Positions 4,877 to 20,360 are shown, counted from the stretch's first letter. The stretch is DNA of 34,280 bases from Candidatus Falkowbacteria bacterium RIFOXYD12_FULL_34_57 (GCA_001780285.1 MFGN01000018.1:1-34280); one strand, 5' to 3'. Notes: a model not told the origin generated them from the sequence alone. A program made the numbers and translations.

Positions 4877-5662
4877 TTACATTTTAAAATTCATTACTAA
4901 ATAGCCGACACCAAAAGGGGCTTCATAGGAGAATAGTTCCGGTTTGTAGGTCGTATCAAACATAATCCCAAGCAAAATAAGAATTGATCTGAGTCCGCAT
5001 TCTCCCACTTCCTCAATTAATTGTCTATCCATGTCTAATATTTTTTGAGTTTCCTTATTTTTTAAGTAATCTATCAGCCTATTATCAAATTTTTTGCCCT
5101 TTGCTGAATATCCAGCGGGGGCATTTTTTGTTAATCTGTGAGACAGGTCTCCAGAGGCTATTACTGCCACTCTTTCTTTACTAATTAATAATTCGCGTTT
5201 TAATAGTTTTCCAAAGTTAAAGTGATCTTCATGTGAGAGATAAGAGTAATACATGGGAATAATTTTTACTTTTGGCAGGTTTTCTGTAAGCAAATATAGA
5301 GGAACAGAGGTTCCATGATCCAAGTTTTCATTGCTCATTAACTGAAGGGCTGCCTTGGTTTCTAGATTTTCTTTAATTCTATAAGTAAGTTTAATATTAC
5401 CGTCCCATTCTTTTTTTGTAGAAAAATCTCCAAAATCTTCAAAGTTGCAAGAAAATTTTGGACTTAAATTTATAGAAAATGAATTTTCTAAAAGATGACC
5501 ATGGGGTGAAATAATAAAAATTGTTTCAATATCCTCTTTTTCTAATTCTTGAGCAAGTTTTTGGTAGGCGTTAACAGTGGTTTTTAATTGAGACAAATTT
5601 TCTTTGCCGATTTGCGGTATTAGTATTGGCGGGTGAGGAACTATAGATGATGCAATTATCAT
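4877..5662 (-). CDS. MEMO/class III extradiol dioxygenase-like protein (AmmeMemoRadiSam system, AmrB-type)
   Basis: 261 residues of the LigB/MEMO fold. SSIVPHPPILIPQIG (5-19) carries the His in the family's first metal-like site; FIISPHGHLL (about 50-59) gives the second His motif; HGTSVPLYLL and ASGDLSHRLT (about 169-178) give the remaining His/Asp motifs of extradiol-dioxygenase-like proteins. In the AmmeMemoRadiSam system, a MEMO-like protein occurs with an AMMECR1 domain and the AmrS radical SAM enzyme, and amrS lies 4.5 kb away on the same strand here; no AMMECR1 gene is visible. The exact reaction is not something the sequence shows. Start ATG 5662 with no Shine-Dalgarno. Confidence 0.8.
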   Translation of the reverse strand: MIIASSIVPHPPILIPQIGKENLSQLKTTVNAYQKLAQELEKEDIETIFIISPHGHLLENSFSINLSPKFSCNFEDFGDFSTKKEWDGNIKLTYRIKENLETKAALQLMSNENLDHGTSVPLYLLTENLPKVKIIPMYYSYLSHEDHFNFGKLLKRELLISKERVAVIASGDLSHRLTKNAPAGYSAKGKKFDNRLIDYLKNKETQKILDMDRQLIEEVGECGLRSILILLGIMFDTTYKPELFSYEAPFGVGYLVMNFKM

Positions 5663-16353: not shown

Positions 16354-17421
16354 ATGATTATGGAAAATAAAACTGCTTTGCAAATTGATGATCGAAACAT
16401 CTCCGAGGAAGAGGCTGGTTTTTATCGCTATGAAAAAGTTTTGGAATTTGTTAAAAAATTAGGGCAAGCCCTAGAAAAAAAAGATTTAAATAAGATTATT
16501 GAGGTTTTTCAAGACAGGATCGCGATTCGCAGTATGATGATTTTGCGCGGAAAATATGATCAATATTTACAATTAATAGTAGATTCTTTTATTTTGTTGT
16601 TGCAAAAGCATGATATTGAATTAATAAAAAAAGACTTGCAGAGATTAATTGAGTTTTTACACGAAAATAATATTTCGGAATTTATTATTCATGAGATACT
16701 CTCGGTTGCTTTTCATGTTAGAAATGAAGGGTTGTTTAATAAACTGGAAAAGATGATTGACGAGCAGAAGAATATTTTTCATAAAGAAAAAGTTTATTAC
16801 TGGCTTCTTCATAGCCGAGCCAGCTGGTACGAAGTGTTTAAAAAGGATCATAAAAAAGCTATTGAATTTAACCTAAGAGTTGTTTTTGCCATGAAGAATA
16901 TAGACAGGGTTTTGTATTTGAAGGCTAAATTTGGTTTGACCTATAATAAAGAATTAATGCCCAAACAAAAAATAAAAGATTTTTTATATTTTTCCGAAGA
17001 ATTTTTAAAAGAAAATAATCTACACGATGCTTTTCGGGGTGAAGTAGAAGCCGGGCGCGCTTATCTGGCCTTAGCTCGGCAACAAGGACTTAAAAATGAT
17101 GCGTTTGACACCCTTGAACAAGCAAAAAATATAATATTGAAATCTTTAAGGGTTTCCAAAGAAATAAATTATCCTAATTTAGAAATTATCGCCAGTGAAA
17201 TGATGGCTGATATCTATAAAGAAAGAATTAAAAAAGTGCAAGCATACTTAAAGGTAAAAAGCAGAGATGATTTTATTATAAATATTATTAAAAGAACAAA
17301 GGATGATGAGAGAAAAATGAGCAGTTTTTTAAAGAAAGCCGGAATTGCCCGCAAAAAATATAATTATCAAACTGTTTTTACAGAAAAGTATAAAAAGGAA
17401 TACTATAAGCATATTACTTGA
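16354..17421 (+). CDS. Hypothetical all-helical protein, 355 residues
   Basis: Not recognised. The sequence is almost entirely amphipathic helix, with tandem helical pairs of about 35-40 residues (for example WLLHSRASWYEVFKKDHKKAIEFNLR, then AFRGEVEAGRAYLALARQQG, then ASEMMADIYKERIKKV) that suggest a TPR-like scaffold, though no strict TPR consensus is met. No signal peptide, no membrane helix, basic C-terminus. Two in-frame ATGs lie at 16354 and 16360; neither has a Shine-Dalgarno. The gene is divergent from the recombinase. Its TGA stop is embedded in the -35 box of the next promoter. It may be a protein-protein scaffold, which is inference only. Confidence 0.65.
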   Translation: MIMENKTALQIDDRNISEEEAGFYRYEKVLEFVKKLGQALEKKDLNKIIEVFQDRIAIRSMMILRGKYDQYLQLIVDSFILLLQKHDIELIKKDLQRLIEFLHENNISEFIIHEILSVAFHVRNEGLFNKLEKMIDEQKNIFHKEKVYYWLLHSRASWYEVFKKDHKKAIEFNLRVVFAMKNIDRVLYLKAKFGLTYNKELMPKQKIKDFLYFSEEFLKENNLHDAFRGEVEAGRAYLALARQQGLKNDAFDTLEQAKNIILKSLRVSKEINYPNLEIIASEMMADIYKERIKKVQAYLKVKSRDDFIINIIKRTKDDERKMSSFLKKAGIARKKYNYQTVFTEKYKKEYYKHIT

Positions 17422-17445
17422 CAAAAAAATATTTTGTGCTAAAGT
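17418..17445 (+). promoter_or_regulatory. Promoter of leader RNA copy 1
   Basis: TTGACA (17418-17423), 16-nt spacer, TAAAGT (17440-17445) with an upstream TGC extending the -10. The -35 overlaps the preceding stop codon. The spacer contains the inverted repeat ACAAAA-N5-TTTTGT (17421-17437), in the same place as the palindrome in promoter copy 2. Confidence 0.7.
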
Positions 17446-17479
17446 GTTTTAAACAGAACATTAACAATATTTTAAAAAT

Positions 17480-17546
17480 GCAATGCGAGACATTGCGCAT
17501 ATCTTCGAGATATATGGTTCGTTGTCTTTGGACAAGCGAAGTGAAG
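17480..17546 (+). ncRNA. Leader RNA element, copy 1 (three hairpins)
   Basis: Three consecutive stems lie about 30 nt downstream of a TTGACA promoter. P1 is GCAATG-CGAGA-CATTGC (17480-17496). P2 is ATATCT-like arms around a TCG loop (17499-17513). P3 is TTCG-TTGTC, loop TTTG, GACAA-G-CGAA (17518-17540), followed by GTGAAG. Copy 2 at 20070 keeps the P1 sequence CAATGCGAG, the P3 outer stem TTCG/CGAA with the same bulged G side, and GCGAAGTGA. P1 pair changes (U-A to U-G) preserve the stem. A 25-codon frame with an ATG at 17478 runs through it, but the conserved 3' block is read in a different frame in copy 2, so conservation is at RNA level. Known riboswitch classes were not recognised. Confidence 0.55.
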
Positions 17547-17605
17547 AGTTTTTAAAATGAGTGATGTACTAACTAATTATTATAAAAAATAATTTATATA
17601 TTGAT

Positions 17606-17637
17606 AAAAACCCTTCATTTCGTGAGGGGTTTTTTTA
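17606..17637 (+). terminator. Terminator/attenuator directly upstream of the HD-domain gene
   Basis: AAAAACCCTTCA-TTTCG-TGAGGGGTTTTTTT forms a strong stem with a T7 tract and ends only 15 nt before the HD gene's first ATG. With no room for another promoter, transcription of the operon must read through it. The segment 17613-17622 (CTTCATTTCG) can instead pair with 17537-17546 (CGAAGTGAAG) over 10 positions with one G-U. Confidence 0.75.
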
Positions 17638-17652
17638 TTTTTTATTATTTAA

Positions 17653-18909
17653 ATGGGGGTAAAAATGAAAAGAAAGAAGTTTGAGCTAGAAGAAGAAATA
17701 ATTGATTATGGAAAAATATTATTTTTAAGAAATAGTGTTGAGAAGAGTCCTTTATGTTTACTTAAGGAAGTGAGCATAAAAAACAAAGAAGATGCAATAG
17801 GGAGGGCCCTGAGAATTATTCATGATATTTTTAGAGAATTATTTTTATTAAAAGTTGATTTTAAAAATATTGAACCAGCTCATGGTCTGGGACACATGGT
17901 GCGTGATTATCTTCATGCTATCAACTTGTTTCAAACAGGAAACTATGAGCCAAAATCTATCTTTGTCGGTATGATTGCCGGGGCTCTTCATGATATAGGC
18001 TGTATTTTAATTCATCGATATGACGAAAAAAATAGAGCAGTTCGTCATGCTGAGATTGGCGCATTGTTAATTCAGGATATTTTGGACAACTTAAATGTAA
18101 ATGATAGTGAAAAAAAATTAATCGCTTATGCTATTGCTGCTCACACACATTATATAAATACGGAAAAAATAGAATGTAGGGATGGAGTAAAGAGGACCAG
18201 ATATTCTTATGTTGATATGGTTAACCAAAAACCTTTTGAGTTAGTTTATTTTCCTCGCTGGGTTGATAGATTGGATTGTAATGGCCCGGCATTCGTAGCC
18301 AGACATTATTTAACCTTAGTTAAAAATCATGAAGATTTTGAAGGTGATAGATTTCACAAGATTAATAGTTTTTTAGAACGAATGAAACCTTTTTCAAGAG
18401 AAAAGACAGGACACCCAACAATGCTTAGTCATCTGGATATGTTTGCTAGTTCCCAAAATAATAAAAATATTTATGGAAAATATGATTATGGTTTTATGAT
18501 TCAGGTCCGTAATTTCCACAAGATTTTAATGGAAAGAACCATCAATTTAGTGTTATCTGGAAAAGGGAAATATGATTATGATGAGGATGAGTTGATAAAT
18601 ACTTGGACGATTTTTCTTCAACAGAATATTGAGCCGACAGAATCAGGTAAAAATGGAAGTTTAATTTTAGAAAAAAAGTTTAGAAAATTAAATAAGAATG
18701 TTAAAAAAATTTGGGCAAATGGTTTTATTGAGACCATGATACAATATATTAAATGGTCCGATTATCATTTGCGGTTATCTGAAAAATGGTCGCAAGAATG
18801 GTTTGAAATTCCTTATTATTGTAAAGATATCAGAAAAGTTATGATATTAAATAAAAACTCCCAGAATTTTATTGATAATAAAATTAAGATTTTAAGAAAG
18901 GAGGATTGA
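17653..18909 (+). CDS. HD-domain metal-dependent phosphohydrolase-like protein
   Basis: 418 residues. The HD-superfamily residues are in order: HGLGHMVRDYLHA (His77, His81), GALHDIG (His113-Asp114), RHAEIGA (His132), AAHTHY (His164/166) and RWVDRLD (Asp205 or Asp208). Five or six ligands suggest a two-metal HD domain. HD proteins of this form hydrolyse nucleotides or phospho-compounds, or act as di-iron oxygenases. Residues 210-418 form a second, unrecognised domain rich in Trp and charged residues. The ATG at 17653 lacks a Shine-Dalgarno, but ATG 17665 has GGGGGT 6 nt before it and may be the true start. Its stop lies one base before the radical SAM ATG, so the two are translationally coupled. 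Expression appears to be gated by leader RNA copy 1. Confidence 0.75.
   Translation: MGVKMKRKKFELEEEIIDYGKILFLRNSVEKSPLCLLKEVSIKNKEDAIGRALRIIHDIFRELFLLKVDFKNIEPAHGLGHMVRDYLHAINLFQTGNYEPKSIFVGMIAGALHDIGCILIHRYDEKNRAVRHAEIGALLIQDILDNLNVNDSEKKLIAYAIAAHTHYINTEKIECRDGVKRTRYSYVDMVNQKPFELVYFPRWVDRLDCNGPAFVARHYLTLVKNHEDFEGDRFHKINSFLERMKPFSREKTGHPTMLSHLDMFASSQNNKNIYGKYDYGFMIQVRNFHKILMERTINLVLSGKGKYDYDEDELINTWTIFLQQNIEPTESGKNGSLILEKKFRKLNKNVKKIWANGFIETMIQYIKWSDYHLRLSEKWSQEWFEIPYYCKDIRKVMILNKNSQNFIDNKIKILRKED
18898..18904 (+). promoter_or_regulatory. Strong Shine-Dalgarno of the radical SAM gene
   Basis: AAGGAGG, 6 nt before ATG 18911 and overlapping the end of the HD gene. Notable because nearly all other genes in the window have no such site. 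Confidence 0.85.
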
Positions 18910-18910
18910 A

Positions 18911-19942
18911 ATGCAGACAAATGATTTTGGGGCGCAAAAAATATTAGCCCACCCAGATAAAATCACTAATTATTTTGAGGGAAAAGAAAAAACAATTATA
19001 GTTTTTGAAATTTATATGTCTAGTAAGTGTGACGCTAAATGCCCAAAATGTTTTCGAAAAGATAATATTATTGAACCCTGTGAGCTTAGTTTAAAGGAAG
19101 TCAAGAATTACTTGAAACAACTCAAAGATTTTGGTGCTAAGGCCGTGATTTTTTCTGGTGGGGGGGAGCCACTTATTTGTCGAGACACACCCAGTGCTAT
19201 GTCATTTGCGAAAAGAATAGGATTAAATGTGGGTCTAAATACCAATGGTATGAATTTACACAAAGGCTTTATTAATTTGGAGTTATTGGCCGCAAATTGT
19301 GATTTTATCAGAATAAGTTTGGATGCTGGTGATTTTAAAATGTATCAAAGAACACATGGAATGAAAGAAAAAATTTTTGATGAAGTAGTATCTAATATTA
19401 AAGAAATTATCAGTGTTAGAAATAAATTAAACTCTAAAACTGTAATTGGCGCCGGATATTTAACAGGAAAAGACACTTCTGGCATTGAGGATATGGAAAA
19501 ATTTGTAATTCTTTGCAGGGAAATAGGATTGGATTTTGCTCATTTTCGTCCTTTCCATTGGGATTTTATTTCTATTAGTGAACAGTTAGGGATATTAAAA
19601 AGAAAATACGCTCATGAGATAAAAATTCTTGCCTCTGATCAAAAATATAATTATTTTAACAAAATTAATGGATTAAGCAATGTTTGTCACGGTATTCATT
19701 TTTTTACAGTTATCGGAGCAGACAAACATGTTTATGCTTGTTGTCATTTGGCAGAAGACAGAAAATATTCTTTAGGTACTTTAGAGAATAAAAGTTTTAA
19801 AGATATTTGGAAAAACAGAAGAGACATCTTTAAAATAATAGATACATCAAAATGCGTTCCTTTTTGCAGGTGTTGCAACATTAATCGGGATATTGATTAT
19901 ATTTTAAAAATTAGTGAAAATAGTCATGTTAATTTTTTATAG
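18911..19942 (+). CDS. Radical SAM protein with SPASM-like C-terminus
   Basis: 343 residues. The SAM-cluster motif is C40-x3-C44-x2-C47 (SSKCDAKCPKCFRK), preceded by a strand FEIYMS and followed by the GGE-type motif FSGGGEPL (81-88) that positions SAM. The C-terminal part contains Cys259, Cys277-278, Cys315, Cys319 and Cys321-322 (CH.., ACCHL, CVPFCRCC), a pattern suitable for one or two auxiliary iron-sulfur clusters as in SPASM/twitch enzymes. LGTLENKSFKDIW before the last cysteines is typical of SPASM proteins. Such enzymes often modify peptides, but no clear precursor is present; the paired HD protein suggests a small-molecule or nucleotide pathway as an alternative. It ends with a strong terminator. 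Confidence 0.85.
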   Translation: MQTNDFGAQKILAHPDKITNYFEGKEKTIIVFEIYMSSKCDAKCPKCFRKDNIIEPCELSLKEVKNYLKQLKDFGAKAVIFSGGGEPLICRDTPSAMSFAKRIGLNVGLNTNGMNLHKGFINLELLAANCDFIRISLDAGDFKMYQRTHGMKEKIFDEVVSNIKEIISVRNKLNSKTVIGAGYLTGKDTSGIEDMEKFVILCREIGLDFAHFRPFHWDFISISEQLGILKRKYAHEIKILASDQKYNYFNKINGLSNVCHGIHFFTVIGADKHVYACCHLAEDRKYSLGTLENKSFKDIWKNRRDIFKIIDTSKCVPFCRCCNINRDIDYILKISENSHVNFL

Positions 19943-19952
19943 TTATTGAATT

Positions 19953-19990
19953 AAGACCTCTTAAAAGTAATTTTAAAGAGGTCTTTTTTT
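19953..19990 (+). terminator. Terminator of the HD/radical SAM operon
   Basis: AAGACCTCTTAAAA, loop GTAA, TTTTAAAGAGGTCTT: 14 pairs with one bulged A, followed by T7. One of the strongest terminators in the window, 10 nt after the stop. Confidence 0.93.
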
Positions 19991-19995
19991 CATGC

Positions 19996-20024
19996 TTGAC
20001 AAAGATGTCTTTGTCTGATAATAT
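19996..20024 (+). promoter_or_regulatory. Promoter of leader RNA copy 2 with an embedded operator-like palindrome
   Basis: TTGACA (19996-20001), 17-nt spacer, TAATAT (20019-20024). The 18-mer GACAAAGATGTCTTTGTC (19998-20015) is an inverted repeat with 8-bp perfect arms and a 2-nt centre covering the -35 and spacer, a natural binding site for a dimeric repressor. Confidence 0.8.
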
Positions 20025-20069
20025 AGCTTGAAGGTCTTTTACAATTTAAGAAAAATAAATAATAAAAAA

Positions 20070-20147
20070 CAATGCGAGTCGTTGTGTGAAATATTGGTTT
20101 TTCTCATTCGTTATCAAAAAGGATATTGGCGAAGTGAGGGGTTTTTT
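20070..20147 (+). ncRNA. Leader/small RNA element, copy 2
   Basis: Related to copy 1. P1 is CAATG-CGAGT-CGTTG (20070-20084), and P2 is GAAA..TTTC (about 20088-20103). P3 is CTCA-TTCG (20103-20110) pairing with CGAA-G-TGAG (20130-20138), with an inner TATC/GATA helix. The 3' end GTGAGGGGTTTTTT (20134-20147) is the same string found at the end of the copy 1 terminator (17622-17635), and here P3 itself doubles as an intrinsic terminator. Predicted transcript about 115 nt. It may be a free small RNA or an attenuator for the membrane protein gene 260 nt downstream. Confidence 0.55.
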
Positions 20148-20180
20148 ATATAAAAAAAAGTATTTTGTTATGTGTTTTAA

Positions 20181-20360
20181 TCAAAAAATCTAATATGTAA
20201 TACCATAGAAAGTCTTGCTGTTAATATCGTAACCACAAAAGATTTGAATAAAGAAGAGGCAAAACAGTTGTGGCTCAACCTAGTGTCAGAAATAAAATTT
20301 TTCGAAGACGAAGCAGGTTCTATGAAGGAAAAAATGTTATTGGCAGTAAGACAAGATTAA
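20181..20360 (+). pseudogene. Open frame without a start codon, possible gene remnant
   Basis: A frame open from a stop before 20181 to TAA 20358-20360 encodes about 59 residues of protein-like composition (for example KDLNKEEAKQLWLNLVSEIK and EDEAGSMKEKMLLAVRQD). No ATG or GTG lies near its beginning; the only candidate is a TTG at about 20235 without a Shine-Dalgarno. It could be the 3' remnant of a gene or a short frameshifted ORF. The rest of the 19943-20405 gap holds a terminator, promoter and leader RNA copy 2. Confidence 0.35.

Follow-up and report, generated by a model that had tools for sequence, protein, structure and literature searches.

A candidate orphan attenuation leader ahead of an HD/radical SAM operon in Candidatus Falkowbacteria and a shorter related copy downstream

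The DNA analysed (the window, 34,280 nt of Candidatus Falkowbacteria bacterium RIFOXYD12_FULL_34_57) contains a two-gene operon, and this operon and the leader features described here lie on its + strand. The first gene (17665-18909) encodes an HD-domain phosphohydrolase-like protein (Pfam HD, 6.1e-6); the ORF search listed its frame from 17653, and the likely start at 17665 is preceded by a segment (17653-17664) made up of the ribosome-binding site GGGGG (17655-17659) and a spacer. The AlphaFold model of this protein has a pLDDT of 82 and its best structural matches, which are weak, are HD phosphohydrolases such as YpgQ. The second gene (18911-19942) encodes a radical SAM/SPASM protein and the operon ends at a terminator-like hairpin (19953-19990; -14.2 kcal/mol for the fold of 19950-19992). 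Copy A, which precedes the HD gene, has a structured, aptamer-like domain in the predicted fold (17467-17560; stems P0, P1, P2 and P3), and copy B, beyond the operon, has a structured domain homologous to it by sequence comparison and fold (20056-20153). Both copies lie on the same strand and each starts approximately 20-30 nt past a sigma-70-type promoter: TTGACA-16-TAAAGT, preceded by TG, for A (17418-17445), and TTGACA-17-TAATAT for B (19996-20024), the latter with the palindrome GACAAAGATGTCTTTGTC at 19998-20015. Downstream of B there is a broken small frame (20170-20360) followed by a 229-aa membrane-protein-like gene.

The original prediction placed an inverted repeat in the spacer of both TTGACA promoters. 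The promoters are present at both copies but the repeat is not distinctive, given that the genome has 8 instances of the spacer palindrome TTGACAAA..TTTGT (17418-17437, 19996-20014 and L077-L082) and 4 of the reversed pattern, and several of the 8 sites are ordinary promoters without such a leader. A shared promoter operator for A and B was rejected for this reason. Several TTGACAAA..TTTGT promoters also have an extended -10, for example TTTTTGTGATAATAT.

Comparison of the two copies identified three shared blocks, CAATGCGAG (17481 in A, 20070 in B), TTCGTT (17518 and 20107) and GCGAAGTGA (17536 and 20129), in identical order and with nearly identical spacing, which bears out the earlier claim of two copies with a common block order downstream of TTGACA promoters. 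This three-block pattern is found at two sites only, A and B, in the 1.6-Mb genome. Among the 380 pairs formed by the 20 intergenic regions of the window, A and B are the top-scoring pair (36.8 bits, with the runner-up at 27.6); against all stretches of the window their score of 31.2 bits is not exceptional, as 3 of 147 random 80-mers match some other stretch just as well, and nhmmer returns an E-value of 0.04-0.26. The homology is accepted because the pair is clearly first among the intergenic pairs, with the caution that it was selected out of a 34-kb window.

The P0 stem of copy A is formed, by sequence and in the minimum-energy fold, between ATTTTAAAAA (17469-17478) and 17549-17558, and encloses three folded hairpins: P1 (17480-17496; GCAATG-CGAGA-CATTGC), P2 (17499-17513; ATATCT-TCG-AGATAT), which is not conserved in sequence, and P3 (17518-17540; TTCGTTGTC-TTTG-GACAAGCGAA). 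In copy B, folding and pair comparison give P1 as ACAATG-CGAGT-CGTTGT (20069-20085). Pairing of P1 and P3 is possible in both copies, as is the A/U closing stem P0, which the original prediction did not name, and the base of P3 is TTCGT/GCGAA in both. Between A and B both nucleotides of one P1 pair differ (G-C to A-U) and a single nucleotide of another (U-A to U-G), so that the structure-preserving change predicted for P1 is borne out by one compensatory and one G-U change, and the five scored base pairs of P3 are invariant. There is no statistical covariation because just two sequences are known, and 240 of 500 control shuffles score at least as high as the real pair. The minimum-energy fold of A is -23.1 kcal/mol, with a z-score against shuffles of -2.41 with P0 and -1.34 for the core alone; B, at -2.05 with P0, is only modestly better than its shuffles, and its core alone, at +0.44, folds no better than they do. 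A and B probably encode structured RNA leaders.

Downstream of the domain of A, an intrinsic terminator (AAAAACCCTTCAT-TTC-GTGAGGGGTTTTT and a U tract, 17606-17634; -15.1 kcal/mol) adjoins the HD ribosome-binding site, and no obvious promoter follows the terminator. The terminator 5' arm, TAAAAACCCTTCATTTCG (17605-17622), is complementary to CGAAGTGAAGAGTTTTTA (17537-17554), and the two would form the 3' and 5' strands of an antiterminator, with 17 of 18 positions paired (16 Watson-Crick and one G-U, with one A-C mismatch). The duplex is worth -20.7 kcal/mol, and none of 2000 leader shuffles is as good (mean -8.2, sd 1.9, minimum -15.5). This upstream partner coincides with the conserved 3' block of A, which also supplies the 3' strand in P3 and in P0, so that three pairings compete. 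Folds of the growing transcript follow this competition: the P0-P3 domain is the minimum-energy structure up to 17618 (-29.7 kcal/mol at that point), the antiterminator wins at 17622-17626 (-33.7 and -36.0 kcal/mol) and the domain together with the terminator is the minimum from 17630. Of 894 other segments of 152 nt taken across the window, the ones that attain approximately -20 kcal/mol with the terminator arm are those holding the arm's own complement, copy B (-26.0) and one coding stretch (two overlapping segments, -20.7 and -20.4 kcal/mol). When 31 predicted terminators of the window and of related loci were compared, the upstream complement of A was the strongest in the window (-16.1, the next being -11.6), and three loci of other genomes equalled or beat it by raw energy.

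The 5' leader of A thus looks like an on/off switch that ends or continues transcription of the two-gene operon. In the proposed mechanism, the folded P0-P1-P2-P3 domain would hold the 3' block GCGAAGUGAAGAGUUUUU so that it cannot reach the terminator 5' arm, the terminator would form and the operon would be off. Were the domain opened or remodelled by a sensed factor, the 3' block would pair with the terminator arm as antiterminator and the HD gene would be read. The similarity of the copies, the mutual exclusion of the pairings and the succession of minimum-energy folds are shown; we infer that A is transcribed, that it switches in this direction and that a ligand or protein binds the face formed by P1 and P3. 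The predicted switch supports a structured leader more strongly than was known when the locus was first described. One part of that description was wrong, namely a GTGAGGGGTTTTTT end common to both copies: in B, GTGAGGGGTTTTTT continues directly from P3, and the counterpart in A is GTGAAGAGTTTTT (17541-17553), whereas the GTGAGGGGTTTTTT end of A belongs to a separate terminator, located 80 nt beyond, of which it forms the 3' arm.

Riboswitches that terminate transcription have the general architecture of an aptamer, an antiterminator and an intrinsic terminator (PMC7266159). Copy A resembles them in its promoter, in a structured 5' domain that carries blocks of conserved sequence, and in its mutually exclusive antiterminator and terminator, the latter just before the first gene; it differs from them in lacking a covarying family, an Rfam match and a second locus sharing its expression platform, and few unpaired nucleotides are conserved between A and B. 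It is most likely, given these features, that A is an orphan attenuation leader with the layout of a riboswitch-type attenuator. An even chance is given to the fuller reading, in which the HD/radical SAM operon is controlled by A as a cis-acting attenuation leader and B, 2.6 kb downstream, is a homologous shorter leader or relic.

Searches with two covariance models, R1 and R2, recovered A and B themselves, and no credible third member came from overlapping samples of 11 genomes of the family, 111 of the order, 381 of the class and 380 of the phylum; the larger runs used stricter filters able to lose weak members. The best match in the order (G017, E 3.5e-5, the sole good E-value among the model matches) and that in a congener (G035) are both inside a protein gene, the other weak matches are mostly long open frames or a dispersed repeat, and the R2 matches in the phylum (E 0.009-0.02) are those expected by chance over 380 genomes. 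The exact three-block pattern has 4 matches in GTDB genomes and a looser pattern 17 in IMG/VR, none of them convincing with R1 or R2 and all consistent with chance, and no relatives of the RNA were identified in plasmids (query A) or phages (query B). The original prediction expected matches upstream of HD/radical SAM genes in related genomes and, had the element been a repeat, matches scattered among unrelated genes; the covariance search gave no credible match of the first kind and, there being no credible matches at all, none of the second. It had also recognised no known class, and Rfam agrees: whether gathering or relaxed thresholds were applied, the bare terminator was all that matched, with no family above its gathering threshold. 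A riboswitch class would show a conserved aptamer whose stems covary across many genomes, and here there are two copies in one genome; as judged from sequence, A would be a riboswitch-type attenuator by layout and at present falls short of riboswitch status as a family. To our knowledge, regulatory RNAs of ultra-small uncultured bacteria have been little studied, and the sizes of its relatives suggest that the genome examined here is of such a group. If confirmed, A would give an HD/radical SAM operon an attenuation leader whose sequence is related to no known class, and it illustrates that a leader can still look orphan with several hundred relatives sampled.

Homologues of the HD protein are scattered through the phylum and several adjoin surface-sugar genes; none is followed by this radical SAM gene and none is preceded by this RNA. 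The closest that was found, 44% identical and from the same order (G029), has a plain 5' UTR of approximately 30 nt and no leader. Model R1 had no match near the HD homologues of five genomes (G329, G171, G719, G556 and G761), and HD homologues elsewhere have different leaders or none, which indicates no fixed link between this RNA and the HD family. Elsewhere, radical SAM and HD homologues are mostly near sugar or polysaccharide genes, again without this RNA; radical SAM relatives are absent from viral contigs and only distant ones are found in plasmids, and HD relatives are absent from phages. The structured leader at A is supported. Given that the class, order and phylum samples gave no third member and that the closest HD homologue found has an ordinary 5' UTR, the larger claim of a leader-RNA family forming a linked system around an HD/radical SAM operon is unsupported. 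In one of these genomes (G329; L042:5816-8425) two divergent HD-family genes lie in tandem beside surface-sugar genes.

It is possible that pieces of dispersed palindromic repeats, inserted in two intergenic regions, account for the conserved blocks, with the hairpins and the terminator-like pairing arising from the palindromes and no regulatory RNA being made. As the original prediction cautioned, GCGAAG words do recur in dispersed repeats: GCGAAGYGA is present 29 times in the genome, approximately 13 of these within two repeat families, GTCATTCTGA..GCGAAGYGAAGAATC and TCCGCCAGCTGGCGGAG..TTCGCGAAGYGAATAAC, and CGAAGTGAAGAGTTTTTA and TAAAAACCCTTCATTTCG of A constitute an 86-nt imperfect palindrome. 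However, this reading is unlikely for several reasons: A and B both lack the GTCATTCTGA/GAATC arms and the CCAGCTGG core; the P1 block CAATGCGAG occurs together with TTCGTT only in A and B; the two copies share one orientation, each just past a promoter; and B retains the block without a second arm. A and B share the word GCGAAGTGAAGA with the GTCATTCTGA..GCGAAGYGAAGAATC repeats but have neither the flanking arms nor more than two occurrences, and the full pattern, at two sites, is unlike a REP-type element with its many copies and palindromic arms. As the arms are absent, a pure REP-repeat origin is unlikely, and the GCGAAGYGA block alone may be repeat-derived. The members of the two families lie at L083-L086 and L103, and at L089, L093, L100, L101, L104, L106, L107 and L110.

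In copy B, the pairing CTCA/TGAG lengthens P3 and a TTTTTT tract comes after it, which makes a probable terminator (20100-20147; -11.2 to -11.3 kcal/mol). There is no antiterminator/terminator pair in B and no terminator beyond this P3-U6 structure; only in A do a terminator between promoter and first gene and a competing antiterminator strand occur. B probably ends at its own P3-derived terminator, which would make its transcript some 115 nt long. Across 18 contiguous pairs, G-U included, the 3' block of B (20130-20148) is complementary to the terminator 5' arm of A (-26.0 kcal/mol). This complementarity arises because B is homologous to A, and it also permits a trans-acting reading: either both copies are small RNAs or B alone is one, its 3' end pairing with the terminator arm of A to antiterminate the operon. 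The promoter and terminator of B would suit such an RNA, and its duplex with the arm is stronger than the -20.7 kcal/mol of A's own. Nevertheless, the scenario is improbable, given that the complementarity is expected from the homology of B to the antiterminator strand of A and that a hairpin of about -11 kcal/mol sequesters the block of B. B may be decaying, since a broken small reading frame comes next. That small gene (20170-20360), which has no Pfam match, appears frameshifted or truncated, beginning MCFNQK and continuing in another frame with ...NTIESLAVNIVTTKDLNKEEAKQLWLNLVSEIKFFEDEAGSMKEKMLLAVRQD.

The choice between antiterminator and terminator in A could in principle be made by a ribosome that does or does not stall on a short frame such as MRDIAHIFEIYGSLSLDKRSEEFLK (17483-17560). 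Two frames of 24-25 codons overlap the domain of A, one of them sharing an ATGA at its end with an 11-codon frame, the switch geometry would suit a ribosome, and a terminator with a competing upstream strand is shared with leader-peptide attenuators such as Phe_leader (RF01859), whose match to A is below threshold (26.5 bits, with a cutoff of 55) and covers the terminator part only. This is highly doubtful: the starts of these frames have no Shine-Dalgarno sequence, unlike the clear ones of neighbouring genes, the frames are not kept in B, which has a 5-codon frame, and there is no single-amino-acid run. A also resembles T-box leaders in the antiterminator/terminator choice within a 5' leader, but Rfam gives no T-box match, neither a T-box sequence nor a specifier stem was seen in A, and the genes that follow are not aminoacyl-tRNA or amino-acid genes.

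That the copies are merely promoter-proximal segments duplicated along with their promoters, with no function beyond transcript stability, is very improbable: another promoter-leader pair ahead of a distant HD homologue in genome G556 indicates that such duplications may be common, but P2 and the flanks of A and B are fully diverged while the loop side of P1, the P3 base and the 3' block match exactly, a pattern suggesting that the blocks are under selection. Very little credence is given to the boldest reading, of a very rare new class of sensor RNA with two copies at adjacent operons on different platforms, in which B would also antiterminate A in trans. The promoter-plus-leader element of G556, AGACTTAYAARGTTCGAC..GGAGCC, has no Rfam match; its two copies (L045:4803-4884 and 5523-5612) align with 45 bits, and shuffles reach 32.6 at most.
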